Positions 11,082 through 49,258 of a DNA stretch of 49,258 nucleotides are shown piece by piece (the first letter of the stretch is position 1; every line of letters starts with the position of its first letter). The stretch comes from Pseudooceanicola algae (GTDB taxonomy: Bacteria > Pseudomonadota > Alphaproteobacteria > Rhodobacterales > Rhodobacteraceae). Below the pieces are notes generated by a model, which worked only from the letters and a program-made list of their open reading frames with translations, searched no databases and was not told the origin of the DNA. Location of the stretch: NCBI RefSeq assembly GCF_003590145.2, contig NZ_CP060439.1, positions 1 through 49,258 of the forward strand, read 5' to 3'. The position numbers and the translations under genes are program-made.

Positions 11082-12176
11082 CTATTCTCCCTGGGCTTTC
11101 GGCCCCAGCAACTCGTCGAAAAGCGCCTTCAGGCGGCCGGCCGGGGCCGTGCCGTCGAACCGCAGCGGCGTCATCAGCGGGTCGAGATCCGTGGCGCTGC
11201 TGCTGGCCAGATCGCAGACGTGATCGCCCAGACCGATACTTTCGAACACGCCGCGGATCTTGTGATCCAGCTCTTCCACCACCAGCGCCACCGGGCTGGC
11301 CCCGGCGCGCAGCCCCAGCAAAAGCCCGTGCAGCCGGTTCGACAAGAGCGCCTGGCAGGGTTCATAGGCGGCAATTGCCGCCGAGATGTCCTCATGGGCA
11401 TCGACCAGGTCGACTTGGCCGGGATGCCGCTTTTCCAGACGTTCGGCAAGCTCGCTCATGTAGGGCAGGTCGCGGCCCACCTGGGCGATGCAGCGGAACC
11501 GGGTCCCCGGTGCGGTGCGGGCGCAGACCTCTTCGGCGAGGCCTGTCAGCCGGTCGCGGATCGCCGGGTCCTTGTCGGTGCGGAAGGAAAAGCCGATGGC
11601 ACCGCGCGGGTCGGGCGCCACGGTGGGGTTTTCGGCAAAGAGGTTCAGCGCCAGATCGGTCACCAGGTGGGTGGTGCGGATGCCGAGGTCCTCGGCATAG
11701 GCCTGGGAAATCCGGTCGCGGATCCCGACGCAATAGAGCACCTTCGAACGCCAGCGCAGCAGGCGCGCATGGCGCGGCCCGATCCGTTCGATGGAGAATC
11801 CGGTCTGGCAGATCCGCACGCCGACCAGCGCCAGCAAGGCGATCACCGCCAAGCTTACCAGCCCCGAGGCGAATTGCTTGACCGACTTGTCGCCATTCAG
11901 CCCGCCGGGGATCAGGAAGTAATAGCACCGGATGCCGCGCAGCCGCGCGCCCAGCATGTTCAGGATCAGGGCCCCGAAACCGCCCTTGTCATGGACCTCG
12001 ACATTGGGCCGCCCGGCGATGTCCAGCGTGCGGCGGAAGCTTTCCGGTGCACGTTCCAAATAGACCTCGGTCATGGCCCGGTCGGAGGCCAAGCGGATCA
12101 GCTCTCGGATGATCAGCGCATCGCCGACATTGTCGAACTGGGTCTTGATGTTGAAATAGGCGCGTTGCCCGCTCAT
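11082..12176 (-). CDS. Polysaccharide pyruvyl transferase family protein
   Basis: The 364-residue product matches the PS_pyruv_trans fold. The N-terminal motif FDNVGDALIIRELIRLA (about residues 14-30) is followed by YYFLIPGG, and the C-terminal half has the signature SNRLHGLLLGLRAG with the conserved His. Members such as CsaB and ExoV transfer pyruvate from phosphoenolpyruvate to sugars as a ketal, adding negative charge. One hydrophobic stretch (VSLAVIALLALVGV, about residues 107-120) may be buried or membrane-associated. The start ATG overlaps the stop of the wzx gene (ATGA, 12173-12176). It probably decorates the repeat unit together with the neighbouring acyltransferase. Confidence 0.85.
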   Translation of the reverse strand: MSGQRAYFNIKTQFDNVGDALIIRELIRLASDRAMTEVYLERAPESFRRTLDIAGRPNVEVHDKGGFGALILNMLGARLRGIRCYYFLIPGGLNGDKSVKQFASGLVSLAVIALLALVGVRICQTGFSIERIGPRHARLLRWRSKVLYCVGIRDRISQAYAEDLGIRTTHLVTDLALNLFAENPTVAPDPRGAIGFSFRTDKDPAIRDRLTGLAEEVCARTAPGTRFRCIAQVGRDLPYMSELAERLEKRHPGQVDLVDAHEDISAAIAAYEPCQALLSNRLHGLLLGLRAGASPVALVVEELDHKIRGVFESIGLGDHVCDLASSSATDLDPLMTPLRFDGTAPAGRLKALFDELLGPKAQGE

Positions 12177-17633: not shown

Positions 17634-18100
17634 AGCACGCTCCCCCAATGCTGGACGCGGCCGTCGCTTTCCGTGGCCAGGTGTTCCCACTGGGTCAGGA
17701 CCACATGGCAGAACTTCGGGGCCAGGCGGCCGCTCAGGGACATTTCCTGGGAATTGGCGATACTGTCGACCCAGATCGTGCGGGCCCCCATGACGCGCCC
17801 CCAGAGCAGGCAGAGCAGGCCCGGCGCGGCCCCGGTCGAGATCACCACATCGGGACGCAGGCGCCGGATCACGCCGAAGGTCTCGGCCAGGCCGGCAAGC
17901 ATCTTGAGCTTCTCGTTCTGGTTGTAGTCCTTAAGCGCGATGAACCGTTCGAAATCGTAGTTTTCGGCCTGGCCGGCATCGGTCGAGGCGAAGGTCACGT
18001 CACTGCCTTCGAAGGCGGGAGCCAGCTGCATCAGCTGCTGCCAGTGCCCCCCCGTCGAAGCGACGGCGAGGACACGCTTGCGTCGCGCGGAAGAGGCCAT
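17630..18100 (-). CDS. pssD: PssD-like glycosyltransferase subunit (Alg14-type, membrane/acceptor half)
   Basis: The 156-residue product has the Alg14/PssD pattern. The N-terminal VLAVASTGGHWQQLMQL is followed by a central RRLRPDVVISTGAAPGLLCL with a hydrophobic stretch, then TIWVDSIANSQEMSLSGRLAP. In split GT-B enzymes this half binds the lipid acceptor and recruits the PssE/Alg13 half. The ATG at 18100 overlaps the ugd stop as TGATG; a TTG three bases earlier is an alternative. The order ugd, pssD, pssE with tight overlaps argues for a coupled glucuronosyltransferase module. The sugar is inferred from that context. Confidence 0.85.
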   Translation of the reverse strand: MASSARRKRVLAVASTGGHWQQLMQLAPAFEGSDVTFASTDAGQAENYDFERFIALKDYNQNEKLKMLAGLAETFGVIRRLRPDVVISTGAAPGLLCLLWGRVMGARTIWVDSIANSQEMSLSGRLAPKFCHVVLTQWEHLATESDGRVQHWGSVL

Positions 18101-19266
18101 CAATCAGCCCCGAACAGGTCTCGGGTGAAGACCTTGTCGGGAATGTCTTCCAGGTCAGCCGTCAGCCGGTTGGCAACGACGACATCCGCAGCGTCCTTGA
18201 ACGCCGCAAGGTCACGTTCGACCCGCGAGTTGAAGAAGCTGTCGTCCTTCAGGGAGGGCTCATAGATGATGACCTCGATCCCCTTGGCCTTGAGACGCTT
18301 CATGATGCCCTGGATCGAGCTCTGGCGGAAGTTGTCCGATCCGGCCTTCATGACCAGGCGGTAGATCCCGACGACCTTGGGCATGGTATCCAGGATCCGC
18401 GCCGCCAGGAAATCCTTGCGGGTCGTGTTGGCATCCACGATCGCGCGGATCATGTTCTGCGGCACTTCCGAGTAGTTGGCCAGAAGCTGCTTGGTATCCT
18501 TGGGCAGGCAATAGCCGCCGTAGCCGAAGGAGGGGTTGTTGTAATGGCTGCCGATCCGCGGGTCGAGGCCAACACCGTCGATGATCTGGCGCGCATTCAT
18601 GCCATGGGCCATCGCATAGCTATCGAGCTCGTTGAAATACGCCACCCGCATCGCGAGGTAGGTATTGGAGAACAGCTTGATCGCCTCGGCTTCTTCGGGA
18701 TCGGTGAAGAGCATCGGCGCCTCGTCGATCAGCGCGCCTTCCAGCAGCATGTTCGCGAAGACCTCGGCCCGCTCGGACTTTTCGCCGACGATGATCCGCG
18801 AGGGATGCAGGTTGTCGTAAAGCGCCTTGCCCTCGCGCAGGAACTCGGGGCTGAAGATCACGCGGTCGGTGTCGTATTCTTGGCGGACCCGGGTCACGAA
18901 GCCCACGGGAACCGTGGACTTCACCACGATGACAGCCTTGTCGCTGACCGAGAGCACGTCCTTGATCACCGCTTCGACCGAAGATGTGTCGAAGAAATTC
19001 GAGACCTCGTCGTAGTTGGTAGGCGTCGCGATGATGACGTAATCGGCATCGGCGAAAGCCGCCTTGCCGTCCAGCGTTGCCGTCAGGTTCAGCTCACGCG
19101 TCGCGAGGTATTCTTCGAGCTCCTTGTCTTCGATCGGGCTCTTGCCCTCATTGACGAGCGCCACGCGATCTTCGCTGATATCGACAGCGGTAACCTCATG
19201 CTTCTGCGCCAGAAGTACGGAGTTGGACAGCCCCACGTAACCAAGACCTGCGACAGCAATTTTCAT
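18100..19266 (-). CDS. ugd: UDP-glucose 6-dehydrogenase
   Basis: The 388-residue enzyme oxidises UDP-glucose to UDP-glucuronate with two NAD+. It has an N-terminal Rossmann motif (AGLGYVGL, residues 6-13), IIATPTN at about 78-84, KSTVPVGF at 116-123, [12 protein letters not shown], and the catalytic loop [15 protein letters not shown] with Cys253. This length is that of the short bacterial class, as in Wzc-linked capsule loci. It heads a three-gene minus-strand unit with pssD and pssE. It provides the acidic precursor that pssD/E probably uses. In some capsule systems BY-kinases phosphorylate Ugd, and two such kinases are encoded in this window. The 256-bp upstream gap is shared with a divergent gene. 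Confidence 0.95.
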
Positions 19267-19522: not shown

Positions 19523-22510
19523 ATGGTCACCAGGCGCAGCTTTCTGGCCGGTGGCGCGGCCGGACTTGGGGGGGCAGGGCTGACTGGCAGCCCCGGCCTC
19601 GCGGCGGAGCAGGAGGGCGAAACCTTCCTGCGCGAATACCGCTTTGCCTTCGCGGCGGCTTCCTTGCTGGCCGGTAAGGCCGGCGCGATCCCGCCCCGGG
19701 CCCGGCTGAGCCTGCGGGACGGGGTGACCGGCGCGGCCAGCACGGTCTATGCAGATGGCCTTATGAGCCAGGTGCGCGACACTCCGATGATCGCCGATGA
19801 CACGGGCGACCTTGGTCTGTGTTGCCTGGCGGACGGGCTTTACGACATCGTGCTCGAGGATGCGGCGGGGGAGCAGGTTCTGGCCCGGCGGCGCCTCGGC
19901 ATACGCACGGCCTTTCGCCATGAAAGCGCAGGCAGTTTCCAGTCTCTCGCGGACCTTCTGGAAGACCGCAGCCTGGGTTATCAGGCTGACGCCACGCCCG
20001 TGGACCCGGCCTATCGGCAGGCCTGGCCCGGGGCCGTTGTACAGGTAGCCCAGGGCGGGTTCAGCTATGTCATCCTGCCCCCCGAAGGCGGGGGCGCGGC
20101 CCACCTGGTCACCGTCGGCGGCGTGCGGATGCAGGTACAGCCCGACCCGCGCGGACGCTATCCCCTGGCCGCCTTTCCGGGAGATGCCGATACCGCGTTG
20201 TCGCTGGCCCTGGAAAGCGGTCCCGTGCTGCTCGAAGAAGGCCATAACTACCGTTTGAGCCGGGGCATCACGCTGCGGGACCGCCCGGTCACGATCATCG
20301 GCAACGGAGCCCGGCTGCTGCGTACCGCCGGGGCCGAGAACCGCCCGGTGCTCGATATCTCCTTTTCCCTGTCCGATCCTGTGCCGGTGCGGGACCTGAC
20401 CCGCACCCGGCTCTGGGCCGGCCATCCCGTCACGCGGCTCACCTCGGGAAAAAATTTCACCTCCGGAGACCGGCTGGACATCCTTGGCCAGAGCTACCGT
20501 TTTACAGAAGAGGCACAGGCGAAAGGGACGGCCGGAACCCCGGGCGCAAATCCGGACCGCACGCTCCGGGGTGGGCCAGATCGGGACAGGCTGGTTCCTC
20601 TGGCCCCTTCCCTGCCCGAGACGCTGGACAACCTGGCCGAGGCACTGAAAGCTGGCGGCCAGGGCCGGGTGCATGCGACGCGCGAAGGGGACGACGCCCT
20701 GGATGTCACCGCCTGGGAGGAGGTCGTTTCGGACGGGGCCTGGCAGTTCGACAGCACCGCCCCTGCCGCCGAATGGAAGCGACAGTTCTCGCCCACGACC
20801 GGCAGCCGGATCACGCTGGACCCCCGGGACGTCACCGCCCTGGGGCTGCAGGTGGGTGATGTCGTCAAGATCGTCTCGGATGATCCGATCCCCTGGTCCC
20901 AGGCCAAGAACAGGGAATACGTGGGCGAAACCTTCCGCATCGATGCGCTGGAGGATGGCCGGCACCTGTTCTCGTCCCAGCCGCTGGCGATGCATGCCCA
21001 TTTGCGCAGCAACCCGCGCCTTGTCCGGCTGACCGACCAGCCGGTGCTGATCGAGGACCTGGAAATCTCGGATGCGCCGGAGTTCGATCCGCAGATCAAC
21101 AGCCCGCACATCTTGCTGACCGGTGCGGTCCGGCCACGGCTGCGCAATGTCGGAACGCAGATGGGGGCCGCAGGACACCTGGAACTGCTGAGCTGCTACA
21201 AGGCCCGGACCGAGGGCGTTTACGGGGCCAACCTGCGCACCTCGACCGCCAAGCGGTACAATGCCTTTGGCTATGTGCTGATCGAATACGCCTGCACCGG
21301 CGGGGTCCATACCGGCCTTTACGGGGCGCGGTGCCGTCATGTCTACACGACCGGTGCACGGGGCCTTCGGGACCTGCCGGGAACCGATCTGACCCGCTAC
21401 GGGGGCGTGATCGGCGCCGAAGTCGAAGGCGTCGGGGACGACTGCGAACATTACGCCTTTGACACCCATCCCGACGCCCTGGGCTGCCGGTTCGACGTGA
21501 AGGTCCGCCCCGGCTATCGCGGTATGTTGGCCTCGCTCTTCGGGGTGCAGCTGCGCGGGCAGGATCATGTGCTGAGGGCGGATGTCACCGCCCAATCCTG
21601 CCTGACGGTCGGTGTCTACGGCACGGGCACCGGCGGACACCAGATCAAGATGACCTTCCGGCGCCCCGACAATGGCGCGGGCGAGAAGACGCCCGTGCTG
21701 CGCTTCACCAGCACCTCGACGGACCGGGCCAGCTGCCGGTTGTCCCTGGAAGCCCAGGTCGAGGGGTATGCGGGGTCCCTGATGCATGTCGACGGGGTCG
21801 ATCTGGTCTGTCCCGACCTCACCCTGTCCTATGCCCCGACAGAGGATGCCAGGGCCGCCGCCCTCTTCTATCCGCAGAACTGTCGGATCGAATGCGCTGC
21901 GCTTGACTGGGACATGGCCGGCACCCGGGCCCATCTGCCACGTCTCGTGCGGCAGATGGGCCCGGACGGCCGGGTGATCATCGACCGGGCCCGGATCCGC
22001 AATGCCCCGCGTTTCCTGATCGGGGACCTGGGGAACGAGCCCGGCGCCGAGGTCCGGATCGCGGACCTGCTGAGCGAGGATGACATCTACATCGGGCCGC
22101 AGTCCGAGGGGTTCGACCTGTTCGTCAATCGCGTTCCCGGCTCTCGCGGCGGCGCGGCGGTCCGGCGGCTGACCGACCGATCTCCGGCCCCCGGCTTCCT
22201 GACATTCCTCTCCCGGACGGCCACGCGGGCCGAATTCTTCTGGCAGGGACGGCTGGACCCGGTCATCCATCTGGTCGCCTGGAACCTCACGGGGCAGGAG
22301 GTCAGGATAAGCGCCCTCAGCCCCCCCGCCTTTGACGGGCAGAAGCTGCAGGTCACCCTGCCCTTGACTCCACCGCCCGACACGACTGCGAAAAAGCCCG
22401 TTGCCGGCTATCTCTTGCAATCCGGGCAGTCCCTGTCCCCGGAGACCGGGTTGGCGCCGGGGCAAGGCCTGACCCTGATCGGGTACCATGGCAGCTGGCT
22501 TCCCGGCTGA
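19523..22510 (+). CDS. Tat-exported right-handed beta-helix protein, possible polysaccharide depolymerase
   Basis: The 995-residue product begins MVTRRSFLAGGAAGLGGAG, a twin-arginine signal, with likely cleavage after GLAA near residue 28. A family-specific N-domain (to about 190) is followed by a long region of short strand-turn repeats as in beta-helix tailspikes and lyases. The best-conserved stretch with the 44765-47317 paralogue is about residues 545-690: RYNAFGYV, CTGG-HT, CRHVYTTGARG, DCEHYAFDTH and GMLASLFGVQLRG. The His/Asp cluster could be an active site. It stands alone on the plus strand, divergent from ugd, and is followed by a 703-bp gap. Binding to or cleaving the locus polymer is inference; no known lyase family is confidently assigned. 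Confidence 0.8.
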   Translation: MVTRRSFLAGGAAGLGGAGLTGSPGLAAEQEGETFLREYRFAFAAASLLAGKAGAIPPRARLSLRDGVTGAASTVYADGLMSQVRDTPMIADDTGDLGLCCLADGLYDIVLEDAAGEQVLARRRLGIRTAFRHESAGSFQSLADLLEDRSLGYQADATPVDPAYRQAWPGAVVQVAQGGFSYVILPPEGGGAAHLVTVGGVRMQVQPDPRGRYPLAAFPGDADTALSLALESGPVLLEEGHNYRLSRGITLRDRPVTIIGNGARLLRTAGAENRPVLDISFSLSDPVPVRDLTRTRLWAGHPVTRLTSGKNFTSGDRLDILGQSYRFTEEAQAKGTAGTPGANPDRTLRGGPDRDRLVPLAPSLPETLDNLAEALKAGGQGRVHATREGDDALDVTAWEEVVSDGAWQFDSTAPAAEWKRQFSPTTGSRITLDPRDVTALGLQVGDVVKIVSDDPIPWSQAKNREYVGETFRIDALEDGRHLFSSQPLAMHAHLRSNPRLVRLTDQPVLIEDLEISDAPEFDPQINSPHILLTGAVRPRLRNVGTQMGAAGHLELLSCYKARTEGVYGANLRTSTAKRYNAFGYVLIEYACTGGVHTGLYGARCRHVYTTGARGLRDLPGTDLTRYGGVIGAEVEGVGDDCEHYAFDTHPDALGCRFDVKVRPGYRGMLASLFGVQLRGQDHVLRADVTAQSCLTVGVYGTGTGGHQIKMTFRRPDNGAGEKTPVLRFTSTSTDRASCRLSLEAQVEGYAGSLMHVDGVDLVCPDLTLSYAPTEDARAAALFYPQNCRIECAALDWDMAGTRAHLPRLVRQMGPDGRVIIDRARIRNAPRFLIGDLGNEPGAEVRIADLLSEDDIYIGPQSEGFDLFVNRVPGSRGGAAVRRLTDRSPAPGFLTFLSRTATRAEFFWQGRLDPVIHLVAWNLTGQEVRISALSPPAFDGQKLQVTLPLTPPPDTTAKKPVAGYLLQSGQSLSPETGLAPGQGLTLIGYHGSWLPG

Positions 22511-29418: not shown

Positions 29419-29542
29419 TCTGGATCGCGGCTGCCGTCGTCGCTGCCGGACCGGGCAAATGAACCGGCGCGCCCGACCGGGATGGGGGGCGGGGCAGGCT
29501 TGTCTTGCAGCGGGTGGGATGACGGGGATAGGAGGGAAGGGG

Positions 29543-30382
29543 ATGAGGACGCCCGAAAGTCTGATCGGCAACACGACGGAGAACAGAGTGGATTTCGAAA
29601 AACTGACGACAGTCATGCGGACCCTCGCGCTGGAGGCCGGCGACAAGATCATGGAGATCTACAATTCCGACGATTTCGAGGTGAAGACCAAGTCGGACGA
29701 AAGCCCGGTGACGGCCGCCGACGAGGCCGCCGATGCGCTGATCTCGGCCGGGCTGCGGGCGGCCTTCCCGGATGTGCTTCTGGTGACCGAGGAACAGGCG
29801 GCCACCCATTCGGAAAGCGCCGATACCTTCCTGATCGTCGATCCGCTGGACGGCACCAAGGAATTCATCAACCGGCGCGGCGATTTCACCGTGAACATCG
29901 CCCTGGTTGAAAACGGCACCCCCACGCGCGGCGTGGTCTATGCGCCTGCCCGGGACCGCATGTTCTATACGCTGGCGGATGGTTCTTCGGTCGAGGAACT
30001 CGGCCCCTTCGGCGAGACCGCCGGAGAGCTGAAACCGATCCGGGTGGCCGACAGCGACAACAGCGCGCTGATGGTCGTGGCCTCCAAAAGCCACCGCGAT
30101 CAGGCGACGGACGATTACATCGGCAAATATGCCGTCAAGGACATGAAAAGCGCCGGCTCCTCGCTGAAGTTCTGCCTGGTGGCCACCGGCGAGGCGGATC
30201 TTTATCCGCGGGTCGGGCGCACCATGGAATGGGACACGGCGGCCGGACATGCGGTCCTGGCCGGCGCGGGCGGGCAGGTGGTGCGCTTTGACGATCTTTC
30301 GCCGCTGGTCTACGGCAAGGAAGGCTATGCGAACCCGTTCTTCATTGCCTATGCTCCGGCTGTCGACCTGAAAGAGGCCTGA
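29543..30382 (+). CDS. cysQ: 3'(2'),5'-bisphosphate nucleotidase, inositol monophosphatase family
   Basis: The 279-residue enzyme removes the 3'-phosphate from PAP (or PAPS), the by-product of sulfate activation and sulfotransferases. The metal-binding motifs are SDESPVTAADEAAD (about residues 51-64), VTEEQ, IVDPLDGTKEF (about 95-105) and MEWDTAAGHAVL near the C-terminus. ATG 29543 has GGAGG eight bases upstream; the longer frame to 29459 has no such signal. It follows parB by 124 bp and precedes an SLC13-type transporter gene by 140 bp, on the same strand. The pairing suggests sulfate metabolism, and possibly polymer sulfation, although no sulfotransferase gene was seen here. Confidence 0.92.
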   Translation: MRTPESLIGNTTENRVDFEKLTTVMRTLALEAGDKIMEIYNSDDFEVKTKSDESPVTAADEAADALISAGLRAAFPDVLLVTEEQAATHSESADTFLIVDPLDGTKEFINRRGDFTVNIALVENGTPTRGVVYAPARDRMFYTLADGSSVEELGPFGETAGELKPIRVADSDNSALMVVASKSHRDQATDDYIGKYAVKDMKSAGSSLKFCLVATGEADLYPRVGRTMEWDTAAGHAVLAGAGGQVVRFDDLSPLVYGKEGYANPFFIAYAPAVDLKEA

Positions 30383-30522
30383 ACGGCAAGCCGCATGGCG
30401 TATCACATTCACGAAGCCGGCCCGGCGCGCCCAGTACACCCAGTACACCCGGTCCGCCGGGGCGGGCGGTTCGCGGGACACTCCATCGCGGGCTTCCCGG
30501 CGGTTTTCACCGGGGGGGGCGG

Positions 30523-32390: not shown

Positions 32391-34421
32391 TCAGTTGGTG
32401 TAGTACTTGCTGCCGTAAGCGGCATAGGCGCCATAGCGACCGGCATGGCCGTAGCGCTTCATGCCCTTCGGATCGACCTGGTTCAGCACCAGACCGGAGA
32501 TCTGGACGCCGAGGCCGTCAAACATGCCCAATGCCGCGGTGACCTGTTCCTTGGAGGTCGAATCCCAAGCGACCACGAAAAGCATCGCATCCACATGCCG
32601 GGCGATGATGCGGGCATCGGGCACCAGCAGCACGGGGGCGGTGTCGATGATGATCGTGTCGTAGGTCTTGCGGGCCTCTTCCAGCATCCGCTCGAACCCC
32701 TGCGAAGAAAAGAGATCCGCAGCGTTCTGGGTCGAGGTCCCGGCCACCAGGATGTCGGCCTTGACCTTGTCGTACTGGACCACCGCATCCTGCAGGGCGA
32801 TGCGGCCCTCCATCACGGCAATCAGCCCGCCATCCTCGTCGACCGTCAGGTATTCCCCGAAGATGCGGCGGCGAATGTCGCCTTCGATCAGCAGGACCTT
32901 CTGGCCCAGACCGATGAAATTCTGCGCCAGGGCCAGGGCCGTGGTGGTCTTGCCTTCCGAGGGCACCGCCGAGGTGGTACCGATGATCTGCGGCGGACGC
33001 TGCGTATCGGTCAGCAGCACCGAGGTGCGCAGGTTGCGGATCGCTTCGGCCGCCGCCGAGGTGGGCTTGTCCGCAAGGTAGCCGATGACATCCTTGCGCG
33101 CCCGCGCCGGCACCATGGGCACCTGACCCAGCACCCGGCGCCCGGTGAACTTTTCCAGGTCCTCGGCAGTGCGGAAGGTACGGGTCTGTCTTTCACGCCA
33201 GAGCACCAGGCCCGCACCGGTCAGCAGGCCGAGCACCGCGAAGATGGTCAGCAGCGTCGGTACCGAGGGCGAGGAGGGGAAAAGGTTGATCGTCGCACGG
33301 GACAGGATGCGGCTGTCGGGGGCCTGCATCCCGGTCATGCTGGTGGTCTCGCGCAGGCGGCGCAGGAAATATTCGTAAAGTTCCTGCTGGGCAGCGACCT
33401 CGCGGGTGATCCGGTTGAGCTCGATCTGTTCGAGGCTCTGGTGACGCAGCTTTTCCTCCAGCATGTCGCCGGAGGTCTGCAGGGCATCGATCTGGCTGCG
33501 GATGCGGTCGATATTGTCGGTCAACCCGGCGGGCGCGCCGGGCCCCTGGGCGGCCAGTTCCGTTTCCAGGCCCAGACGGGAGGTTTCCAGCGCGGCGATC
33601 CGGCTGCGGATATCCTTCAGCTGGTAGTTCATCCCCGTCAGCTGTTCGGGGCTGATCAGATCGGTCGAGATGTTGAAGGCGCTCAACTCGGTCTCTGCAT
33701 CCTGAAGCTCCTGGTAAAGCGCCGTCACCCGTTCCGAAAGCCAGTCGGAGGCATCGTCCAGCCCCCCGGTCTTCAGGACAAGTTGGTCGTCGATATAGGT
33801 CAGGACCACTGCATCGGCGAGTTCCGCAGATTTCAGCGGGTTCCGGGTGGTGGCGGTCACGCTGAAGACCAGGCTGTTGGGGATGTTCCTGACGGACAGA
33901 CTCTGCGTGAGCCGCTCGGTCACCGCATCCAGGGTCACCTTGTCGTTTTGCGCGGGATCAAGGTCGAAGCTGCTGGAGGGCAGCCAGCTCTTGACCTGTG
34001 ACAGCAGGCCTTGCAGGAGGCCGGGGGGGGCAAGCCTGGGATTGAATTCCGGGTCCTGCATCAGGTCCATGCGGTCGACGACCTGTTCCAGCAGTTTCCG
34101 GCTGCGCAGCACCTCGAGTTCCGTGGTGATTTCCGAGGTGTCCCCCGCAAGCGAGCCGACGACGCTGGCCAGGTCCACAATCTGCGCGGAATTGCTGTCC
34201 AGCATCCCCGTGGTGGTGGTGCTGTAGCGCGGCGTGGTGAAGAAGATCAGGAAGAGCAGGCCCAGGGCGAGCCCCAGAAGAACCGATCCCAGAAGCGTCA
34301 TCTTCTCGCGCCGCAGAAGCTGCAGCAGGATATCCAGGGAGAAAGCGGTTTCGGGAGGGGGGGCATCGGCGTGTGGCGGGGGAAGCTTCACGTAGGCAGC
34401 GGGCCCGTTCAGTTTATTCAT
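32391..34421 (-). CDS. Wzc/ExoP-like polysaccharide co-polymerase with BY-kinase domain (copy 1)
   Basis: The 676-residue protein has a membrane helix at about residues 45-65 (LLGSVLLGLALGLLFLIFF), a periplasmic Wzz-type coiled-coil region and a second helix near 400 (PTLLTIFAVLGLLTGAGLVL). The cytoplasmic tyrosine kinase domain has Walker A SAVPSEGKTTTALALAQ, Walker A' LLIEGDIRR and Walker B TIIIDTAPVL. The tail RYGHAGRYGAYAAYGSKYY has six tyrosines for autophosphorylation. It controls polymer length and couples to Wza. ATG 34421 starts at the natural N-terminus (MNKLNGPAAY). It follows fcl on the same strand after 197 bp. A diverged paralogue lies at 42521-44671. Confidence 0.93.
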   Translation of the reverse strand: MNKLNGPAAYVKLPPPHADAPPPETAFSLDILLQLLRREKMTLLGSVLLGLALGLLFLIFFTTPRYSTTTTGMLDSNSAQIVDLASVVGSLAGDTSEITTELEVLRSRKLLEQVVDRMDLMQDPEFNPRLAPPGLLQGLLSQVKSWLPSSSFDLDPAQNDKVTLDAVTERLTQSLSVRNIPNSLVFSVTATTRNPLKSAELADAVVLTYIDDQLVLKTGGLDDASDWLSERVTALYQELQDAETELSAFNISTDLISPEQLTGMNYQLKDIRSRIAALETSRLGLETELAAQGPGAPAGLTDNIDRIRSQIDALQTSGDMLEEKLRHQSLEQIELNRITREVAAQQELYEYFLRRLRETTSMTGMQAPDSRILSRATINLFPSSPSVPTLLTIFAVLGLLTGAGLVLWRERQTRTFRTAEDLEKFTGRRVLGQVPMVPARARKDVIGYLADKPTSAAAEAIRNLRTSVLLTDTQRPPQIIGTTSAVPSEGKTTTALALAQNFIGLGQKVLLIEGDIRRRIFGEYLTVDEDGGLIAVMEGRIALQDAVVQYDKVKADILVAGTSTQNAADLFSSQGFERMLEEARKTYDTIIIDTAPVLLVPDARIIARHVDAMLFVVAWDSTSKEQVTAALGMFDGLGVQISGLVLNQVDPKGMKRYGHAGRYGAYAAYGSKYYTN

Positions 34422-34592
34422 ATGCACGTCAAACTCATAATCTGGGAACCCTAGCCTGAGGGGGGGGGAGGGCAAGAAAAAACAGGGACCCGGGCCTTGT
34501 GGCCCCAAGTGTGCTGATTTGGCAGGCGGCTTCGCCGTGGGGTCTGCCGCGGATCGGCTGGCTGGCATGGCGAAGAGCCCGGAGGCGTGTCA

Positions 34593-40767: not shown

Positions 40768-42126
40768 ATGCGGTGCCTGACAGTAGCGCTTTGTCTGCTT
40801 ACCCTCGCAGGGTGTGGGGTGGTCTACCGGAGTCCCACGGTAAGCTCTGCTTCCAACAGTGGCAGTGCGGTGCGCGTCCTGCCGATCACGCCGCAGAACG
40901 TCCTGATTGCGAACCGGTCTTCCTATCGGCCGCGCACCCTGCCGGCGATCTTCTCGCAAACCTCGGGCGGCGGTAGCGCCTTGCGCGGGGCCGGGGCCCT
41001 GCCGGAACCGGCGGTCAGCCAGACCTCGCGCCCCGAAGGCATGGCGATGCGGGTGCCGCCGCCCGTTTCCTCCGGTCCCTACCGGATCGGCGTCGGTGAC
41101 GTGCTGCTGCTTGCCACCCCCCAGGTTGGCAATACCGTCGAGCAGCTGACCGGCCTGCTGGCCGCCCAGAATGCGCGCCAAGGCTACACGGTGCAGGATG
41201 ACGGCGCGATCGCCATTCCCAACGTGGGCCGCGTGCAGGTCAACAGCCTGACCCTGGAAGATGCCGAGGCCGAGCTGTTCCAGCGCCTGGTCGAAAACCA
41301 GATCGACCCGACTTTCAGCCTGGAGGTCTCCGAGTTCAATTCCAAGAAGGTATCGATCGGCGGCGCCGTGGCCCGCCCGGCCGTGGCCCCGGTCACGCTG
41401 ACCCCGCTCTACCTGGACGAAGCCCTGGCCGCTGCGGGCGGGATCACGGTGACGGATCAGGATTATGCCTCGGTGCGGATCTACCGCGACGGTGAGCTGT
41501 ATCAGATCCCGCTGACCGAGCTTTACTCCAACAACGGGCTGCAGCGCATCCAGCTGGTCGATGGAGACAGTGTCTTCGTGGATACCGAGTATGACCTCGA
41601 CATGGCCCAGGCCTATTTCGAAGAGCAGATCCGGCTGGCCGAATACCGTCAGGATGCCCGGATCGCCGCGCTGGATGCGCTGGATACCGAGGTGGCCATC
41701 CGCCGGGCGGACCTGAAGGAAGCGCGGGACAACTACATTTCCCGAACCGACCTCGGGGCCGTGGAACGCGACTATGTCTACCTGACCGGCGAGGTCACGC
41801 GCCAGAGCCGCTTCGCGCTGCCCTTCGAACAGACTGCGGTGCTGGCGGATGCGCTTTACAGCACCGGCGGCATGCCGACCGAAACCGGCGACGCAAGCCA
41901 GATCTACGTGTTGCGCGGTTCGGATGATCCGCGGGAATTCGCAGCCGTCACCGCCTGGCGGCTGGACGGCAGCGAGGCGACCAACCTGCTGCTGACGACC
42001 CGATTCGAGCTGCGGCCGAACGACATCATCTTCATCGCCGAGCAGCCGATCACCCGTTGGAACCGTGTCATCCAGCAGTTCGTGCCCTCGCTGATCACCA
42101 CGCCTGTCTCAGTTGTCGCAAACTGA
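40768..42126 (+). CDS. Wza-like outer-membrane polysaccharide export lipoprotein
   Basis: The 452-residue product has a lipoprotein signal (LLTLAGC, Cys about residue 16). After a disordered stretch comes the Poly_export domain (SSGPYRIGVGDVLLLATP at about 108). Two SLBB-type units follow (KVSIGGAVARPAVAPVTL, ALAAAGGITV; VYLTGEVTRQSRFALPF, ALYSTGGM), ending in DIIFIAEQPITRWNRVIQQF. The fold forms the octameric outer-membrane channel that pairs with Wzc-type co-polymerases. ATG 40768 has AAAAGGA upstream. It follows yjbF and precedes the second BY-kinase gene after a 394-bp gap. Confidence 0.92.
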   Translation: MRCLTVALCLLTLAGCGVVYRSPTVSSASNSGSAVRVLPITPQNVLIANRSSYRPRTLPAIFSQTSGGGSALRGAGALPEPAVSQTSRPEGMAMRVPPPVSSGPYRIGVGDVLLLATPQVGNTVEQLTGLLAAQNARQGYTVQDDGAIAIPNVGRVQVNSLTLEDAEAELFQRLVENQIDPTFSLEVSEFNSKKVSIGGAVARPAVAPVTLTPLYLDEALAAAGGITVTDQDYASVRIYRDGELYQIPLTELYSNNGLQRIQLVDGDSVFVDTEYDLDMAQAYFEEQIRLAEYRQDARIAALDALDTEVAIRRADLKEARDNYISRTDLGAVERDYVYLTGEVTRQSRFALPFEQTAVLADALYSTGGMPTETGDASQIYVLRGSDDPREFAAVTAWRLDGSEATNLLLTTRFELRPNDIIFIAEQPITRWNRVIQQFVPSLITTPVSVVAN

Positions 42127-42520
42127 CCTGGTGTTGGCCGGAACCTGTTCGGGACCTGGCATGGCGGGCGCAGACCGGAACGCCCCCGGCCCATGCAATC
42201 CCCTTGGAGGGAGGCCTGGGCCGGGGGGCGGTATTTTCCGGTAACGCTCTGTTCCGACGGCAGGACATCCTGCCCGCTCCGGGACAAAATCGTGGAGTAT
42301 ATAGGCAGAATTCCGCGTCTTGGGGTGGGTCATGCTGGCGAAGGCGTCTTTGTCTTGAAGAACGTCTTGCCTTTAAGCAGGTGATAGCAAGGAGATAGAC
42401 CAAGTTGGCCGCGGATGCGGGGGAGAGGTATCCCCTTGTATGGATTCAAGCCCCGCCATCGGATATCTATGTTAGCTTGAGACAAGAGTTTTTTTGGCTT
42501 GGATAAGTAAGACAAGTATT
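42127..42520. promoter_or_regulatory. Long leader before the second BY-kinase gene
   Basis: No gene is seen in this stretch. It contains a near-palindrome GGCAGGACATCCTGCC (42259-42274) and an AT-richer second half with a T7 run (42490-42496). The length suggests a separate promoter for the downstream kinase gene. No promoter could be chosen with confidence. Confidence 0.4.
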
Positions 42521-44671
42521 ATGAACCAGACATTTCCAACACGGGTTCCCTCAACGGCTTCAGGCACGCCCGACGGGGGCGCGGCGGATTTCATTGATCT
42601 TGGCCGCATTCTTCAGACCCTGTGGCGTGGCAAGTTCGCAATCCTGGCGGCGATGGTGATCGGGGCGATCTGTGCTGGCTATTATGCCTTCGCCGTGGCG
42701 ACGCCGCTTTATCGTTCGACCAGCGTGGTGATGCTCAACAACCGCGAAGAGCAGGTCGTGGACATCGAAAGCGTGCTCGGCGGGCTGTCTCCGGACCGGC
42801 TCGTGATCAATTCCGAGGTCGAGATCCTCAACAGCCGCAGCCTGAATGGCCAGGTGGTCGACGCGCTGAACCTGACAGAGGATCCGGAATTCAACGGGGC
42901 CCTGCGTCCGGCCAGCCTGACGGAACGCCTGCGTCAGTCCGTTTCGGGACTGATCGGCACCGGCGACGGCACGACGCTTTCGGAGGCCGAGCGTGAGGCG
43001 CGGGAGAGGGAAGCGACGATCAACGCCCTCCAGCAGGCGGTGACCGTTCGCAACGTCCCGACAACCCTTGTCTTCGACATCACGGCCAAGTCCGAAAGCC
43101 CCCGCAAGGCGGCATTGATCGCGGATACGGTTGCCCAGCTCTATATCGAGGAACAGCTCGCGGTGAAATTTGCCGCGACGGAACAGGCGACGAGCTGGTT
43201 GTCCGACCGCGTGGCCGAACTTCGTGTCGAGCTGGAAGATTCCGAGGCCAAGGTGACCAGCTTCAACCTGGGCGCCGAGCTGATCAACCAGGAAACGCTG
43301 AGGGGGCTGGAACGCCAGCTCAAGGAACTGCGGGACCGCATTGCCGAGCGCAGCAGCAGCCTTGACCAGCTGCGGGAGCAACTGGCGCGGATTCAGGCGG
43401 CCGATACGCCACTGGCCAAGGCCGAGGCCTCCGGTGATGCCCAGTTGCAGCGCATGATCAGCCAGGGGGGCGCCGATGATCCGGCCTTCGCCATCCGGCT
43501 CGAGCAGGTGATTGCAAGACTGGATATCGACGTGCAGCGCGGCGAAACACAGCTGCAGGCGCTGTCCACTTCGGAAACCGAACTGGGGAACCAGATCGAC
43601 CGGCAGGGGGCAGATCTGCTGACCCTGCAGCAGCTGACACGCGAGGCCGAGGCCAGCCGGCTGCTCTACGAATATTTCCTGTCTCGTCTGAAGCAGACAT
43701 CCGCGCAACGCGGGATCCAGCAGGCGGACAGTCGTCAGCTGTCCACCGCGATCGTGCCGGTGTCCCCCTTCGAGCCGCGCAAGTCCATGATGATGGTCAT
43801 CGGTGCCATGCTGGGGCTGTTCGTGAGCGCCGCGCTGCTTCTGATCCGGGAATCCCGGAACAATACATTCCGCGAAGCCGAGACCCTTGAGGGCCTGTCG
43901 GGTTATTCGGTGCTCGGCAACATTCCCCTGCTGCCTGCACGTCGGCGCAAGGATGCCCTGGAATATCTCGCCTCGCGACCCACCTCTGCGGCGGCCGAGG
44001 CGATCCGGAACCTGCGGACCTCGGTGCTACTGTCCAATATCGACTCGCCGCCCCAGGTCATCATGATGACCTCCTCGCTGCCCGGGGAAGGCAAGACCAC
44101 GCTGTCCCTGGCCCTGTCCCAGAGCTTTGGCGGCATGGGCAAGAAGGTGCTGCTGATCGAAGGCGATATCCGTCGCCGGGTCTTTTCGCAGTATTTCGAC
44201 ATCGCCGATGATGCGCCCGGACTGGTTGCCGTGCTCGACCGGAGCACGGCTTTGAAAGATGCGGTGGTCCACAACGCACGGGTGGGTGCGGATATCCTGA
44301 TCGGGGACAAGACCAGCACAAATGCGGCCGATCTGTTCTCGTCTGAGAGCTTCGCCACGGTGCTGCGGGAAGCGCGCGAACAGTACGACCAGATCATTAT
44401 CGATACGCCGCCGGTACTCATCGTGCCGGATGCCCGGGTAATCGCGCATCAGTGCGACGCGGTGATCTTCACGGTGAAATGGGATCATACCTCGCACCCG
44501 CAGGTGCTTTCGGCGCTGAAGATGTTCGAGAGCGTGAACCTGCAGATCAGCGGTCTGGCCCTGAACCAGATCAATCCGAAGGGGTTGAACCGCTATGGAT
44601 ATGGCGGAAAATCAGGGGCTTATAGCCAGTACGCCTATACGGGCTATGGTAAGAACTACTACACCAACTGA
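42521..44671 (+). CDS. Wzc/ExoP-like polysaccharide co-polymerase with BY-kinase domain (copy 2)
   Basis: The 716-residue protein has the Wzz-type layout. The first membrane helix lies at about residues 45-65 (FAILAAMVIGAICAGYYAFA), followed by long coiled coils and a second helix near 430 (MMMVIGAMLGLFVSAALLLI). The kinase domain has SSLPGEGKTTLSLALSQ, LLIEGDIRR and QIIIDTPPVLIVPDAR. The tail RYGYGGKSGAYSQYAYTGYG plus KNYYTN has eight tyrosines. ATG 42521 starts the natural N-terminus (MNQTF). It belongs to the yjbH-yjbF-wza run and may be the cognate kinase for that Wza. It ends 93 bp before a convergent gene. Confidence 0.93.
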   Translation: MNQTFPTRVPSTASGTPDGGAADFIDLGRILQTLWRGKFAILAAMVIGAICAGYYAFAVATPLYRSTSVVMLNNREEQVVDIESVLGGLSPDRLVINSEVEILNSRSLNGQVVDALNLTEDPEFNGALRPASLTERLRQSVSGLIGTGDGTTLSEAEREAREREATINALQQAVTVRNVPTTLVFDITAKSESPRKAALIADTVAQLYIEEQLAVKFAATEQATSWLSDRVAELRVELEDSEAKVTSFNLGAELINQETLRGLERQLKELRDRIAERSSSLDQLREQLARIQAADTPLAKAEASGDAQLQRMISQGGADDPAFAIRLEQVIARLDIDVQRGETQLQALSTSETELGNQIDRQGADLLTLQQLTREAEASRLLYEYFLSRLKQTSAQRGIQQADSRQLSTAIVPVSPFEPRKSMMMVIGAMLGLFVSAALLLIRESRNNTFREAETLEGLSGYSVLGNIPLLPARRRKDALEYLASRPTSAAAEAIRNLRTSVLLSNIDSPPQVIMMTSSLPGEGKTTLSLALSQSFGGMGKKVLLIEGDIRRRVFSQYFDIADDAPGLVAVLDRSTALKDAVVHNARVGADILIGDKTSTNAADLFSSESFATVLREAREQYDQIIIDTPPVLIVPDARVIAHQCDAVIFTVKWDHTSHPQVLSALKMFESVNLQISGLALNQINPKGLNRYGYGGKSGAYSQYAYTGYGKNYYTN

Positions 44672-44679
44672 CCTAGACG

Positions 44680-44713
44680 ATCACCGCCCTGATGCAGGGT
44701 CCGGGGCGGTGAT
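44680..44713. terminator. Terminator-like hairpin between convergent genes
   Basis: ATCACCGCCC (44680-44689) pairs with GGGCGGTGAT (44704-44713), a perfect 10-bp stem with a 14-nt loop. It lies nine bases after the kinase stop. No U run follows. Confidence 0.5.
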
Positions 44714-44764
44714 TGCAAGGCCGCCGCCGTACCCGGTCGCACGGCCTCCGCGGGTTTCAGGGGC

Positions 44765-47317
44765 TCAGGCGCGTATCCAGACGCCCTGGTAGCCGATGAA
44801 GTTTGCGACCTGCCCCGGCCCCATCAGGAGATCGTTGGCCAGGCTCACATTCGCAGTCGTCGTGCGCAGCGTATACCCGAAGCTGGGGCTGCGGATCGAG
44901 ATCGTGAGCCTTTGCCCCTCATGGGCAGGGGCGGTGAGCGACGAGAGGTCGACATCCGTCGAGTGCGTATTGGCCATCAGGAGCAGCAGGTTGGTTTCGA
45001 ACCGGCCGCGCCAGATGACATTCTTTGCCCCGCCCGCTGCAGAGGCATAGGCCATGATTGAGGGCAGGGGGTGGCCGCTGCCATGGGTGCGCACATTGGC
45101 CAGGCCGATGGCACCCGGGATCCGGTTGGCAAAGACATCCCAGCCCGAGGACTGGTTGAGCACCTGGACGGGGGAATCCGTCAGCAGATCATGGATGATG
45201 ATCCGGGCACTGCTCTCGCTTCCGAGATCCCCGACATAGAAGGTCGGGGCATTGCGGATCCGGGCATGATCGATGACCACGTCCCCGGCGGGCCCTTTCT
45301 GGCGCACGATGCGCGGCGTCGCCGCGGTGGAATGTTGCATGTCCCAGTCGAGATGGCTGCATTCGATCCGGCAATTTTCCTGGTAGAAGATCGCCCCCGT
45401 GTAATCGGTTTGCGGCGCGTATTCGATGTCCAGCCGCGAGACCAGCACATCAACACCTGAGGAGTGGATGATCGGGTTCCCGTAATCGCTGATTGTGGCG
45501 CGCATGGCCATGCGGATACGCGAGGGCTGCGAGGAATCGCTGTCAAAGCGCACGAGGTCGGTCTGCATGCCCTGTTGCAGGTCCGGCCGTCTGTAGATCA
45601 CATCGATGTCATGTTCGCCGCGCCCGTCGCCGACCACCTTGACGGTTACGCAGGCCTGGGCCTCCACATCGGCACGCAGCGTATGTCCCTCACCACGCAG
45701 TTGCACCCCGAAGAGCGAGGCCAGCATGCCGCTGTAGCCCTGCGAGACGGTCACGTCGAAATGGCAGCGCAGCGCATCGGAATGGGTATCGAAGGCGTAG
45801 TGCTCGCAATCCGCACCGATCCCTTGGATGACGGCGCCGATCACACCGCCGTAGCGTGCCATTTCCGAGCTCGGCGGGGTGCTGATCCCGCGGGCGCCGG
45901 TCGTGTAGACATGGCGGCACTTGGACCCGAAAAGGTCGGTATGTTTGCCACCGGTGCAGCCGTATTCCACCATCACGTAGCCGAAGGCATTGTAGCGCTC
46001 GGCCGTCGAGGTGCGCAGGTTCGTACCATAGATTCCTTGGGTCTTCGGCTTGTAGCAGCTGAACAACTCAAGATGCGACGCCGCGCCGAAATGGGTGCCG
46101 ACATTGCGCAGCTCGGGCTGGACGGCCCCGGTGATCAGGATATGGGAGGTGTTGATTTCGGGATCGAATCCCTCGGTGTCGGAGCATTCCAGATTTTCGA
46201 TCCGCACAGGCATGTCGGTGAGCCTGGCCAAGCGGGTGTTGGTCTGGAAATGCTGCCACATGGCCGGGGGCTGCGAGGTTAGGATGTACTTCCCTTCGGA
46301 GATGCCGTCCACGCGGATGCTTTCGCCGCAATACTCGTTGTCGTCGGGGTCGCTCCAGGGAATATAATCGTCTGAGACGACCTTCATCACGTCCCCGACC
46401 TGCACGTCCAAGGTCGAGAAATCCGTGGAAAACAGGGTTACCCGCCCGCCCACGGTCGGAGAGTTCTGTCGCTGCCAGTTGCCGGAGTTGGTGCCGAACT
46501 GCCATTTGTTATCCGGGATGATCTGCGCGGTGGAGGTCACCTCGAGGTTGGACCCGTTCATGGTCGCGCTGAGCTCGGCGTTGGTAACCGTCGAGGAGGC
46601 ATAGCGCGATCCCGCCCCCGAGGAGCCGTTAATGGCATCCTTGAGGTTGACCAGGCTCTGGGTCCGGGACGAGCCGATCAGCACATCGTTCGGCGCACTT
46701 AGGTTGGTCACGAAACGATACTGCCGCCCGACCATGGAAACGGTCTGGCCAACCTGGAAATTGGCACTGCCGCTCAGGGTCGCGACCGGGTAGCCGGCCC
46801 AGAGGGAAATCAGACTGATCCCGCTCACCGGGACCGGATCCGAGAAGGAAAATCCGATGTCCAGGATTGGATCATTGTCGGCATCTGCAAGCCGCTGGAT
46901 CTTGGAGCCGTTGCCGTAGATGCGCACGGGCATGTCGCGGAAGACCGCGCTGCGCTCCGCCGTGTAGGTGACGGCGGCTTCAAGCTGTACGGCGCCGGCC
47001 GAGACGGCAAGTTCGAGGGCTTCGGGGAAACTTCCCGGAAAGGCGCCGATCGGGTAGCGGCCCTGTTCGTCGGGCGCTACTCTCAGACGCACCCCACCAG
47101 GGGTCACTAGGTGGTAATTCGTCGAGAAGAAAGAGACTTCCGTGTACAGATAGGGGCCTGCCTGCCAGACGCTGCCTTCGCCGAAGGCCGGGTAGGTGCT
47201 GTTGAACAGATTTTCCCGTTCCGAGAACAGGATAGCCATCCTGCCATCGACATATCGATAGCTCGGATAGGCCTTGGGGGCGGTGCTGCTGGCGCTCTGC
47301 GAATAGATGACTACCAT
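44765..47317 (-). CDS. Right-handed beta-helix protein without signal peptide, paralogue of the 19523-22510 product
   Basis: The 850-residue product aligns along most of its length with the Tat-exported 995-residue protein. Shared runs include GGVRLRVAPDEQGRYPIGAF against GGVRMQVQPDPRGRYPLAAF, SFSDPVPV, NLRTSTA-RYNAFGYV, CRHVYTTGARG, CEHYAFDTH and GMLASLFGVQLRG. It lacks the Tat signal and the first ~150 residues of its paralogue, starting MVVIYSQSASSTAPKAYPSY. How it reaches the polymer, if it does, is unclear. A 175-bp repeat of its leader and first codons lies at 7111-7284. Polymer binding or cleavage is inferred from the tailspike-like pattern. Confidence 0.8.
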   Translation of the reverse strand: MVVIYSQSASSTAPKAYPSYRYVDGRMAILFSERENLFNSTYPAFGEGSVWQAGPYLYTEVSFFSTNYHLVTPGGVRLRVAPDEQGRYPIGAFPGSFPEALELAVSAGAVQLEAAVTYTAERSAVFRDMPVRIYGNGSKIQRLADADNDPILDIGFSFSDPVPVSGISLISLWAGYPVATLSGSANFQVGQTVSMVGRQYRFVTNLSAPNDVLIGSSRTQSLVNLKDAINGSSGAGSRYASSTVTNAELSATMNGSNLEVTSTAQIIPDNKWQFGTNSGNWQRQNSPTVGGRVTLFSTDFSTLDVQVGDVMKVVSDDYIPWSDPDDNEYCGESIRVDGISEGKYILTSQPPAMWQHFQTNTRLARLTDMPVRIENLECSDTEGFDPEINTSHILITGAVQPELRNVGTHFGAASHLELFSCYKPKTQGIYGTNLRTSTAERYNAFGYVMVEYGCTGGKHTDLFGSKCRHVYTTGARGISTPPSSEMARYGGVIGAVIQGIGADCEHYAFDTHSDALRCHFDVTVSQGYSGMLASLFGVQLRGEGHTLRADVEAQACVTVKVVGDGRGEHDIDVIYRRPDLQQGMQTDLVRFDSDSSQPSRIRMAMRATISDYGNPIIHSSGVDVLVSRLDIEYAPQTDYTGAIFYQENCRIECSHLDWDMQHSTAATPRIVRQKGPAGDVVIDHARIRNAPTFYVGDLGSESSARIIIHDLLTDSPVQVLNQSSGWDVFANRIPGAIGLANVRTHGSGHPLPSIMAYASAAGGAKNVIWRGRFETNLLLLMANTHSTDVDLSSLTAPAHEGQRLTISIRSPSFGYTLRTTTANVSLANDLLMGPGQVANFIGYQGVWIRA

Positions 47318-47981: not shown

Positions 47982-49258
47982 TCAGAAGATATCCACATAC
48001 GGCATCAGGTCGGCGAAGCTCAAATTGTCGAGCTGAAGCATATCTCCGTCGCCGAAGTCAAAGATCAAATCGCCGTCGTCCTCCAAGACGTACGCCTCTA
48101 GGTCGGAGACGTCCTCGAGCCCAGTGATCTTGAGCCGAAGGCGATCCGTGCCCTCGCCGAAGTCGAGGATCCGGTCTGCCTCGTAACCGGTCCGAAAGAT
48201 GAAGACGTCGTCATCCCCTAGCCCCCTCAGCAGATCATTTCCTGAATTGCCGTCGAGCGTGTCGTCGCCGTCGCCCCCGACCAGCGTGTCGTCCCCGTTC
48301 CCCCCTGCGAGCAGGTCGTCCTGGGAGCCGCCATAGAGCAGGTCGTCCGCATCCCCGCCGTAGAGGAGGTCAAGGCCGGACCCACCCGAGAGCGTATCAT
48401 CGTCGGATCCTCCATAGACGGTGTCGTCCCCGGAGCCGCCATAAGCCGTGTCGCCTCCGGAACTGCCGAAGAGCAGGTCGTTTCCGGCGCTCCCAAGAAG
48501 GGTGTCGTTGCCCGCCCCGCCGAACAGCAGATCGTCGTCGTCCTCGCCGAACAGCACATCGTTGCCGGCATCGCCGTCGAGCCTGTCGTTGCCACTGCCT
48601 GCCCTAAGAACATTCGCGGCTCCGTCACCGACGAGATGATCGTTGCCGCCCGCCGTGGTCACGTTCTCGATCCCGACCAGTCGGTCGGAGCCGTGGCCCG
48701 TGGACTGGGTGCCCGTTGTCGCCAGGGAGACCGTCGTGTCGATGGTACCGCCGAAGTTCGCGGTATCGATCCCGTCACCACCGTTGAAGTAATCATTTCC
48801 TGAATTGCCGTCGAGCGTGTCGTCGCCGTCGCCCCCGACCAGCGTGTCGTCCCCGTTCCCCCCTGCGAGCAGGTCGTCCTGGGAGCCGCCATAGAGCAGG
48901 TCGTCCGCATCCCCGCCGTAGAGGAGGTCAAGGCCGGACCCACCCGAGAGCGTATCATCGTCGGATCCTCCATAGACGGTGTCGTCCCCGGAGCCGCCAT
49001 AAGCCGTGTCGCCTCCGGAACTGCCGAAGAGCAGGTCGTTTCCGGCGCTCCCAAGAAGGGTGTCGTTGCCCGCCCCGCCGAACAGCAGATCGTCGTCGTC
49101 CTCGCCGAACAGCACATCGTTGCCGGCATCGCCGTCGAGCCTGTCGTTGCCACTGCCTGCCCTAAGAACATTCGCGGCTCCGTCACCGACGAGATGATCG
49201 TTGCCGCCCGCCGTGGTCACGTTCTCGATCCCGACCAGTCGGTCGGAGCCGTGGCCCG
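47982..49258 (-). CDS. Giant RTX/cadherin-like secreted protein, C-terminal ~425 residues (continued from base 1)
   Basis: This is the 3' part of the gene that begins at 4732 and crosses the window edge. It holds one full and one partial copy of a 186-residue RTX unit with about a dozen GGxGxDxxx nonapeptides, and a short non-RTX linker (residues such as GIDTANFGGTIDTTVSLA). After the last repeat comes a C-terminal tail of about 80 residues (VFIFRTGYEADRILDF, then FDFGDGDMLQLDN) ending in MPYVDIF. That acidic, then aliphatic, DxIF-like end is typical of uncleaved type I secretion signals in RTX proteins. If the window were linear, this would be a 5'-truncated gene. Frame and repeat phase match exactly across the junction, so one continuous gene is favoured. 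Confidence 0.85.
   Translation of the reverse strand, partial: GHGSDRLVGIENVTTAGGNDHLVGDGAANVLRAGSGNDRLDGDAGNDVLFGEDDDDLLFGGAGNDTLLGSAGNDLLFGSSGGDTAYGGSGDDTVYGGSDDDTLSGGSGLDLLYGGDADDLLYGGSQDDLLAGGNGDDTLVGGDGDDTLDGNSGNDYFNGGDGIDTANFGGTIDTTVSLATTGTQSTGHGSDRLVGIENVTTAGGNDHLVGDGAANVLRAGSGNDRLDGDAGNDVLFGEDDDDLLFGGAGNDTLLGSAGNDLLFGSSGGDTAYGGSGDDTVYGGSDDDTLSGGSGLDLLYGGDADDLLYGGSQDDLLAGGNGDDTLVGGDGDDTLDGNSGNDLLRGLGDDDVFIFRTGYEADRILDFGEGTDRLRLKITGLEDVSDLEAYVLEDDGDLIFDFGDGDMLQLDNLSFADLMPYVDIF
48235..49258 (-). repeat. 558-bp tandem repeat array, part 1 (continues into 1-796)
   Basis: The unit 48701-49258 is, by eye, identical over 558 bp to 1-558. The segment 48235-48700 matches the last 466 bp of the unit. 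The period is 186 codons, so copies can be gained or lost without shifting frame. The units encode RTX nonapeptides plus a linker. Confidence 0.92.

Follow-up and report, generated by a model that had tools for sequence, protein, structure and literature searches.

Paired tailspike-like proteins with homology to Klebsiella phage capsule depolymerases in the exopolysaccharide loci of Pseudooceanicola algae

The 49,258-bp contig NZ_CP060439.1 of Pseudooceanicola algae, analysed here over its whole length (the window), encodes two large proteins, P0001 and P0002, which lie beside polysaccharide genes and have bodies that, judged by homology to phage enzymes, are of the Klebsiella K5 capsule-depolymerase type. 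We consider it most likely (probability about 0.6) that both are depolymerases derived from phage tailspikes that cut the cell's own uronic-acid exopolysaccharide (EPS) by beta-elimination. Going by sequence, this would be an enzyme of known kind (the phage capsule depolymerase type) with a partly known role (a tailspike within an EPS locus) in a new arrangement: two copies of the same body, one carrying a signal of the twin-arginine translocation (Tat) type and one without.

44765..47317, minus strand: P0001, 850-residue signal-less tailspike-like beta-helix protein (open reading frame (ORF), BLASTP, model)
19523..22510, plus strand: P0002, 995-residue paralogue of P0001 with Tat-type signal (ORF, BLASTP, N-terminus)
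20099..22501, plus strand: P0002 body, homologous to P0001 residues 68-848
44768..45226, minus strand: C-terminal region of P0001, which aligns with the C-terminal portion of phage depolymerases

Homology to phage depolymerases

P0001 and P0002 are paralogues, with 379 identities (47%) and 508 positives over 804 columns and a BLASTP score of 743 bits, far above chance. An earlier sequence-only reading of this DNA had described such a pair of 995 and 850 residues, and both ORFs have these sizes; the runs that it singled out (RYNAFGYV, CRHVYTTGARG and CEHYAFDTH) are identical in the two proteins. A whole-genome protein search (E <= 0.001) revealed no place of this type beyond these two. A further close relative, P0003 (1040 residues, RR-type start), came from scoring the 7997 candidates that share most words, and the three sequences together make up the profile of three close sequences used below. 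A 1030-residue open frame runs opposite P0002 (19397-22489, minus strand), which we regard as a GC-rich artefact because the plus-strand frame is the conserved one.

The relationship with phage enzymes becomes clear at the level of profiles. Nothing in Pfam scores above cut-offs for the full-length proteins, and matches in PHROGs are weak (the best, to phrog_29932 with no annotated function, has an E-value of 1.4e-9 for P0002). Searching 50,697 phage records by tblastn yielded matches in nine records for P0001 and seven for P0002, mostly from Klebsiella phages and at 22-27% identity. The matched proteins include K5-2 ORF38, annotated as a K5 depolymerase, and, for P0001, a gene of phage P1011 that is probably the dep1011 gene. 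According to the available parts of the respective reports, purified K5-4 ORF38, to which K5-2 ORF38 is up to 98% identical, strips K5 capsules (PMC5496888), and dep1011 degrades the same capsule (PMC11077817). A profile of seven phage proteins aligns with that of the three close sequences at an hhalign probability of 99.7% (E 6.4e-27, 499 columns), and the alignment with the phage depolymerases reaches near the C-terminus; P0001 is just 16-19% identical to the phage proteins, and about 16% to K5-2 ORF38. In the C-terminal region, six of the nine proteins of alignment A6 match Phage_depo_C (PF25692); the window protein core scores below threshold, and hhalign still aligns the region. The Klebsiella phage K5 depolymerases thus share with P0001 and P0002 a homologous beta-helix body and the RHxYTT, FDTH and QxRG motifs; they differ in being phage proteins directed against the Klebsiella capsule, whereas P0001 and P0002 are encoded by a bacterium on an EPS plasmid, P0002 with a Tat-type signal.

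The hhalign match rules out an unrelated new family. The sequence-only reading had proposed an undescribed family, which fails because the match, confident at profile level, is to a characterised enzyme family; its description of the proteins as tailspike-like holds, Klebsiella phage tailspikes being matched by profile. Overall that reading is partly supported, and the observation at its core is confirmed. Another candidate relative, K64-ORF41, was ruled out by sequence (Prob 0.4). Among plasmid records, tblastn gave no match with P0001 or P0002, and two records with P0003, both by its head region alone. Scans that depend on one or two short patterns confirmed no relative among genome contigs with alignments A1 and A5, or among viral sequences with A1 and A4; viral scans returned eight loci with A2 and three with A5.

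Predicted fold and candidate active site

45227..47059, minus strand: predicted parallel beta-helix region of P0001, residues about 87-697 (structural matches of the model)
45977..45979, minus strand: Tyr447, invariant in both wide alignments, possible counterpart of K1-lyase Tyr311
45911..45916, minus strand: Arg468-His469 of the RHxYTT motif, aligned with K1-lyase Arg333-His334
45782..45790, minus strand: Asp510-Thr511-His512 of the FDTH motif, His512 aligned with K1-lyase catalytic His373
45695..45697, minus strand: Arg541 of the QLRG motif, aligned with K1-lyase catalytic Arg397

The predicted model of P0001 is a beta-helix, as had been anticipated from the sequence, and its longest structural alignments (461-470 residues) are with the Klebsiella K1 capsule lyase, NTUH-K2044-K1-1 ORF34 (7W1C/7W1D). 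An initial AlphaFold model, with a mean pLDDT of 46.1, was of poor quality and was set aside. In a viral fold search the K5-4 depolymerase ranked second (E 1.4e-20), a rank that is partly circular because K5-2 ORF38 was in the folded alignment. The conserved runs do contain invariant His, Asp and Arg residues, as claimed earlier: Arg468, His469, Asp510, His512 and Arg541 are invariant in both wide alignments, and Gln539 is near-invariant in one. Paired through the phage-family profile, the His and Arg positions are equivalent to those of the K1-lyase active site (His373, Arg397 and Arg333-His334), and a second alignment agrees with this His/Arg pairing at 53.9% probability; taken alone, the window proteins have no significant direct sequence similarity to the K1 lyase (Prob 2.7). 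The pairing of Tyr447 is ambiguous, since the alignments disagree on it; this residue sits 21 positions before the RH motif, compared with 22 for Tyr311. Whether the conserved His/Asp cluster lies in one groove, a check suggested with the sequence-only reading, is answered only indirectly, by the alignment of the motif residues with the K1-lyase active site. We suggest that His512, Arg541 and Arg468/His469 (P0001 numbering), probably together with a conserved Tyr, would catalyse cleavage in a groove of the beta-helix.

Two alternatives bear on this activity. The proteins might be uronic-acid C5-epimerases of the EPS, which have a related chemistry and the same fold, and such epimerases score with Z within 1.5 of the K1 lyase. 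We find this highly improbable, as epimerases align over 314-320 residues versus 461-470 for the lyase, and the nearest sequence relatives of known activity are depolymerases. A role as non-catalytic matrix proteins, with beta-helices that bind and cross-link EPS, would suit the fold and is improbable too, given that His512, Arg541, Arg468 and His469 remain invariant despite only 16-19% identity to the phage proteins.

Export signals, head domains and wzc-linked relatives

19523..19606, plus strand: P0002 Tat-type signal, MVTRRSFLAGGAAGLGG...LAA; the cleavage position is a guess by eye
19661..20197, plus strand: P0002 head, phage tailspike N-terminal-like domain plus linker module (profile match)
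47018..47317, minus strand: P0001 head, residues 1-100 (MxIIYxxSA...), common to signal-less proteins with other bodies in four same-genus genomes

The two copies differ most at their N-termini. P0002 starts with MVTRRSFLAGG, and the Tat-type call is based on this start sequence and its RR motif; P0001 has neither an RR motif nor a hydrophobic N-terminus (15-residue Kyte-Doolittle means peak at 0.28 within residues 1-60), and its open frame extends just 14 residues upstream of the start Met. The contrast between one copy with a TRRSFL signal and one without had been correctly recognised before. The heads differ as well: in a part that is present in P0002 and P0003 and absent from P0001, the three-sequence profile aligns with the phage tail spike N-terminal domain 9vyg (E 6e-9). 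The short head of P0001 occurs in four of 21 same-genus genomes searched, where wzc lies within 2 kb of the proteins that carry it, and its second half matches the linker module of a wider set of wzc-linked proteins described below (98.0%).

A phage-style depolymerase within a bacterium's own polysaccharide machinery is already known from WceF of Pantoea stewartii. In the available text on that enzyme, WceF has a Tat signal and a tailspike-like fold with a phage-type head, its gene belongs to an EPS cluster that includes wzc, and its knockout is reported to lengthen stewartan (PMC7949094). P0002 resembles it as a tailspike-like protein with a Tat-type signal and a phage-type head that is encoded in such a cluster. 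Both window proteins lie in an EPS cluster with wzc, and the Tat signal expected of WceF-type enzymes is found in P0002 and not in P0001. WceF, moreover, is a stewartan hydrolase for which that text describes no paralogue pair. It does not appear among the PDB profile matches or the structural matches listed, and no direct sequence comparison was made. By analogy, P0002 most likely trims or releases the EPS of its own locus: exported folded via Tat, it would shorten or free chains in the periplasm or extracellularly, much as WceF does with stewartan. P0001, with the same body and no signal beside wzc, may have the same polymer as its target once it is outside the cell, which it might leave by lysis, in a phage-like particle or through non-classical export.

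We searched 393 other genomes of the same family with the profile of the three close sequences. In 21 of them it is matched at its head end only, and the body type is rare. Sixteen genomes with a full head (E < 1e-11) were kept for profile A7, which matches its own 16 members by construction, and for counting distances; the scan with the head profile scored at most seven candidates per genome. The five dropped from the count (G110, G341, G353, G362 and G375) matched at E 1.7e-6 or weaker; of the three whose sequences were examined, G110 has a wzc homologue about 6 kb from its match, and G341 and G375 have none in the 20 kb covered. The signal-less proteins of the 16 genomes begin with a tailspike-type head and linker and carry other bodies, and a profile built from these heads finds N-terminal domains of phage tailspikes in the PDB: 9vyg at E 7e-16, and 7eeq, named a "head-binding domain", at E 2e-8. 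The distance between spike and wzc homologue is 80-14,062 bp, with 8 of the 16 within 500 bp, 10 within 1.3 kb, 14 within 8 kb and all within 15 kb. Uniform placement would put 0.2 of 16 spikes within 15 kb, a null that is simple because polysaccharide genes cluster anyway; the spikes are tied no less to the polysaccharide locus as a whole than to wzc. No small partner gene is evident around the spikes; the small recurrent frames with known coordinates overlap wzc (clusters unannotated). The linker module also occurs in ORFs G098:C12:45595-45972 and G273:C4:2977614-2977958, in each case at a distance from that genome's wzc-linked spike.

The same-body pair with different N-termini is not unique to the window, as two of 23 other genomes (6-60 kb examined in each) also have one; copies beyond these stretches would have escaped the count. 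The G172 copies, one of which has an RR-type start, are 55% identical over 706 residues; about 20 kb separates them, and their region also holds yjbH, yjbF, wza, wzc and exoY- and ugd-like genes. Those of G013 are 53% identical over 403 residues, with no RR copy in the stretch examined; its spikes (C11:40759-42333 and 43318-45135) have different heads and lie about 1 kb apart, beside wzc. An RR copy is therefore present in just two of the three pairs, and head type does not track export type, the tailspike-type head being on the exported copy in the window and on the other copy in G172. In the open-access literature, as far as the texts were accessible, our search turned up no description of tailspike-headed proteins linked to wzc in this family of bacteria, nor of same-body pairs of which one member is exported and the other not.

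Captured phage tailspike genes, kept as passengers or phage decoys with no EPS role, would account for the phage-type head and body, for bodies that vary among genomes and for the rarity of the window's body type. We give this very little credence: both copies are intact, their GC content at third codon positions (0.80-0.82) is like that of most neighbouring plasmid genes tested, one has a Tat-type signal, and wzc-linked relatives occur in 20 other genomes, with same-body pairs in three.

A more serious competitor, unlikely as we judge it, is that P0001 and its wzc-linked relatives serve as the spike for adsorption on a phage-like particle released by lysis, a Rhodobacterales gene transfer agent (GTA) being the most plausible one; the body of the spike would be matched to the producer's own capsule for reaching kin, and EPS processing would be left to the Tat copy alone. 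The phage-type heads of the 16 proteins fit this, as do the N-termini of the 20 wzc-linked relatives listed, none of which has an RR motif or is strongly hydrophobic. GTA clusters are very common in this order, and for this reason it says little that the GTA marker PF13547 is found in 20 of 21 spike-bearing genomes, that of the window included; G418, a 99% complete genome with a wzc-linked spike, has no PF13547 match. It also counts against a spike that the tailspike-type head domain is missing from P0001 and kept by the exported P0002. Two points on RcGTA speak for the spike. By locus number, its head-spike fibre gene rcc01080 precedes the capsule genes rcc01081-86. RcGTA further has a separately encoded biofilm-degrading tailspike, TspA (rcc02623; PMC13420450, a preprint available in part). 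This Rhodobacterales tailspike is like P0001 and P0002 in degrading, as we propose for them, a matrix made by its own producer; as described there, it differs in its beta-sandwich head, its lysS neighbourhood and an active site that lies at the interface between subunits and includes His533 and Asp566, while P0001 and P0002 lie in EPS loci. No TspA-like ORF of at least 300 residues was seen by eye in the 16 kb around lysS in this genome, a further point against the spike, and orthology with TspA by position was rejected, since P0001 and P0002 are on a plasmid contig and not beside lysS (the sequences were not directly compared). In roughly 100 genomes the final 60 positions of the head profile are weakly matched, mostly by one ORF of about 790 residues per genome and mostly in frames of 760-860 residues; these ORFs are possibly the GTA tailspike TspA.

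A more speculative idea, which we hold to be rather doubtful, combines these roles: in capsule and EPS loci of Rhodobacteraceae, a dedicated, hypervariable tailspike near wzc would be a "key" that fits the polysaccharide of its own locus and moves with it, signal-less keys serving GTA or other phage-like particles that reach kin and Tat-exported duplicates of the same body (here and in G172) trimming the producer's EPS. A cell changing its capsule would then change its key too. If self-directed depolymerases are indeed what these genes encode, such loci would come with a depolymerase already matched to the polymer that they make, an aid to predicting EPS specificity, to biofilm control and to tests of how GTAs find kin.

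Polysaccharide genes and plasmid setting

8722..10056, minus strand: Wzy_C family protein, polymerase or ligase (family match)
11082..12176, minus strand: polysaccharide pyruvyl transferase family protein (family match)
18100..19266, minus strand: UDP-glucose 6-dehydrogenase-like protein, divergent from P0002
25547..29418, plus strand: RepA-type initiator, ParA-type ATPase and ParB/RepB-type protein (replicon genes)
32391-34568, minus strand: wzc1, wzc-type protein
40768..42126, plus strand: Wza-type export protein
42494..44671, plus strand: wzc2 (Wzz, GNVR, AAA_31; Tyr-rich tail), convergent with P0001, 93-bp gap

Each copy adjoins one polysaccharide block, and the earlier description of the pair as bracketing these loci is loose to that extent. 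P0002 borders the 8.7-19.3 kb block (wzy, acyltransferase, pyruvyl transferase, the flippase wzx, glycosyltransferases and exoY-like and UDP-glucose dehydrogenase-like genes), and P0001 the 32.4-44.7 kb block (wzc1, fcl, gmd, yjbH, yjbF, wza and wzc2); the contig also encodes a sugar transferase and an Alg13/14-like pair. The setting among wza and exoY-type genes is as first noted, and polysaccharide processing is probably the function. The nearer wzc is 9.9 kb from P0002 and 93 bp from P0001. The two wzc-type proteins, 53% identical in the kinase part and with Tyr-rich tails, are the only full wzc matches found in the genome. For the dehydrogenase-like protein, the best NCBIfam match is PRK15057 (643.9 bits, under the cut-off of 757), and it exceeds the cut-off of a nucleotide sugar dehydrogenase subfamily. 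Candidate genes for forming UDP-glucuronic acid and for adding pyruvate fit with a uronic-acid polymer as substrate.

The window is an entire contig of a four-contig genome and is plasmid-like, with no overlap of 15 bases or more between its ends. Searched with a 10-kb segment that contains the replication genes, 72,556 plasmid records gave 167 with a match, which in the best 20 lies on the ParA-, RepA- and ParB-type genes; the plasmids listed come from Phaeobacter, Leisingera, Dinoroseobacter, Thioclava and kin, and the best match, from Thioclava, has many polysaccharide genes in the portion examined. Between the polysaccharide blocks, an inositol-monophosphatase-family protein is encoded beside a CitMHS / sodium:sulfate-type transporter (29459-32337, plus strand), a couple possibly involved in sulfate supply. 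The other neighbour of P0001 is a 412-residue protein with 18 RTX nonapeptide stretches (47982-49220, minus strand), and in G418 an RTX-matching ORF (L050:12225-13553), 42% identical in part, also follows the spike.
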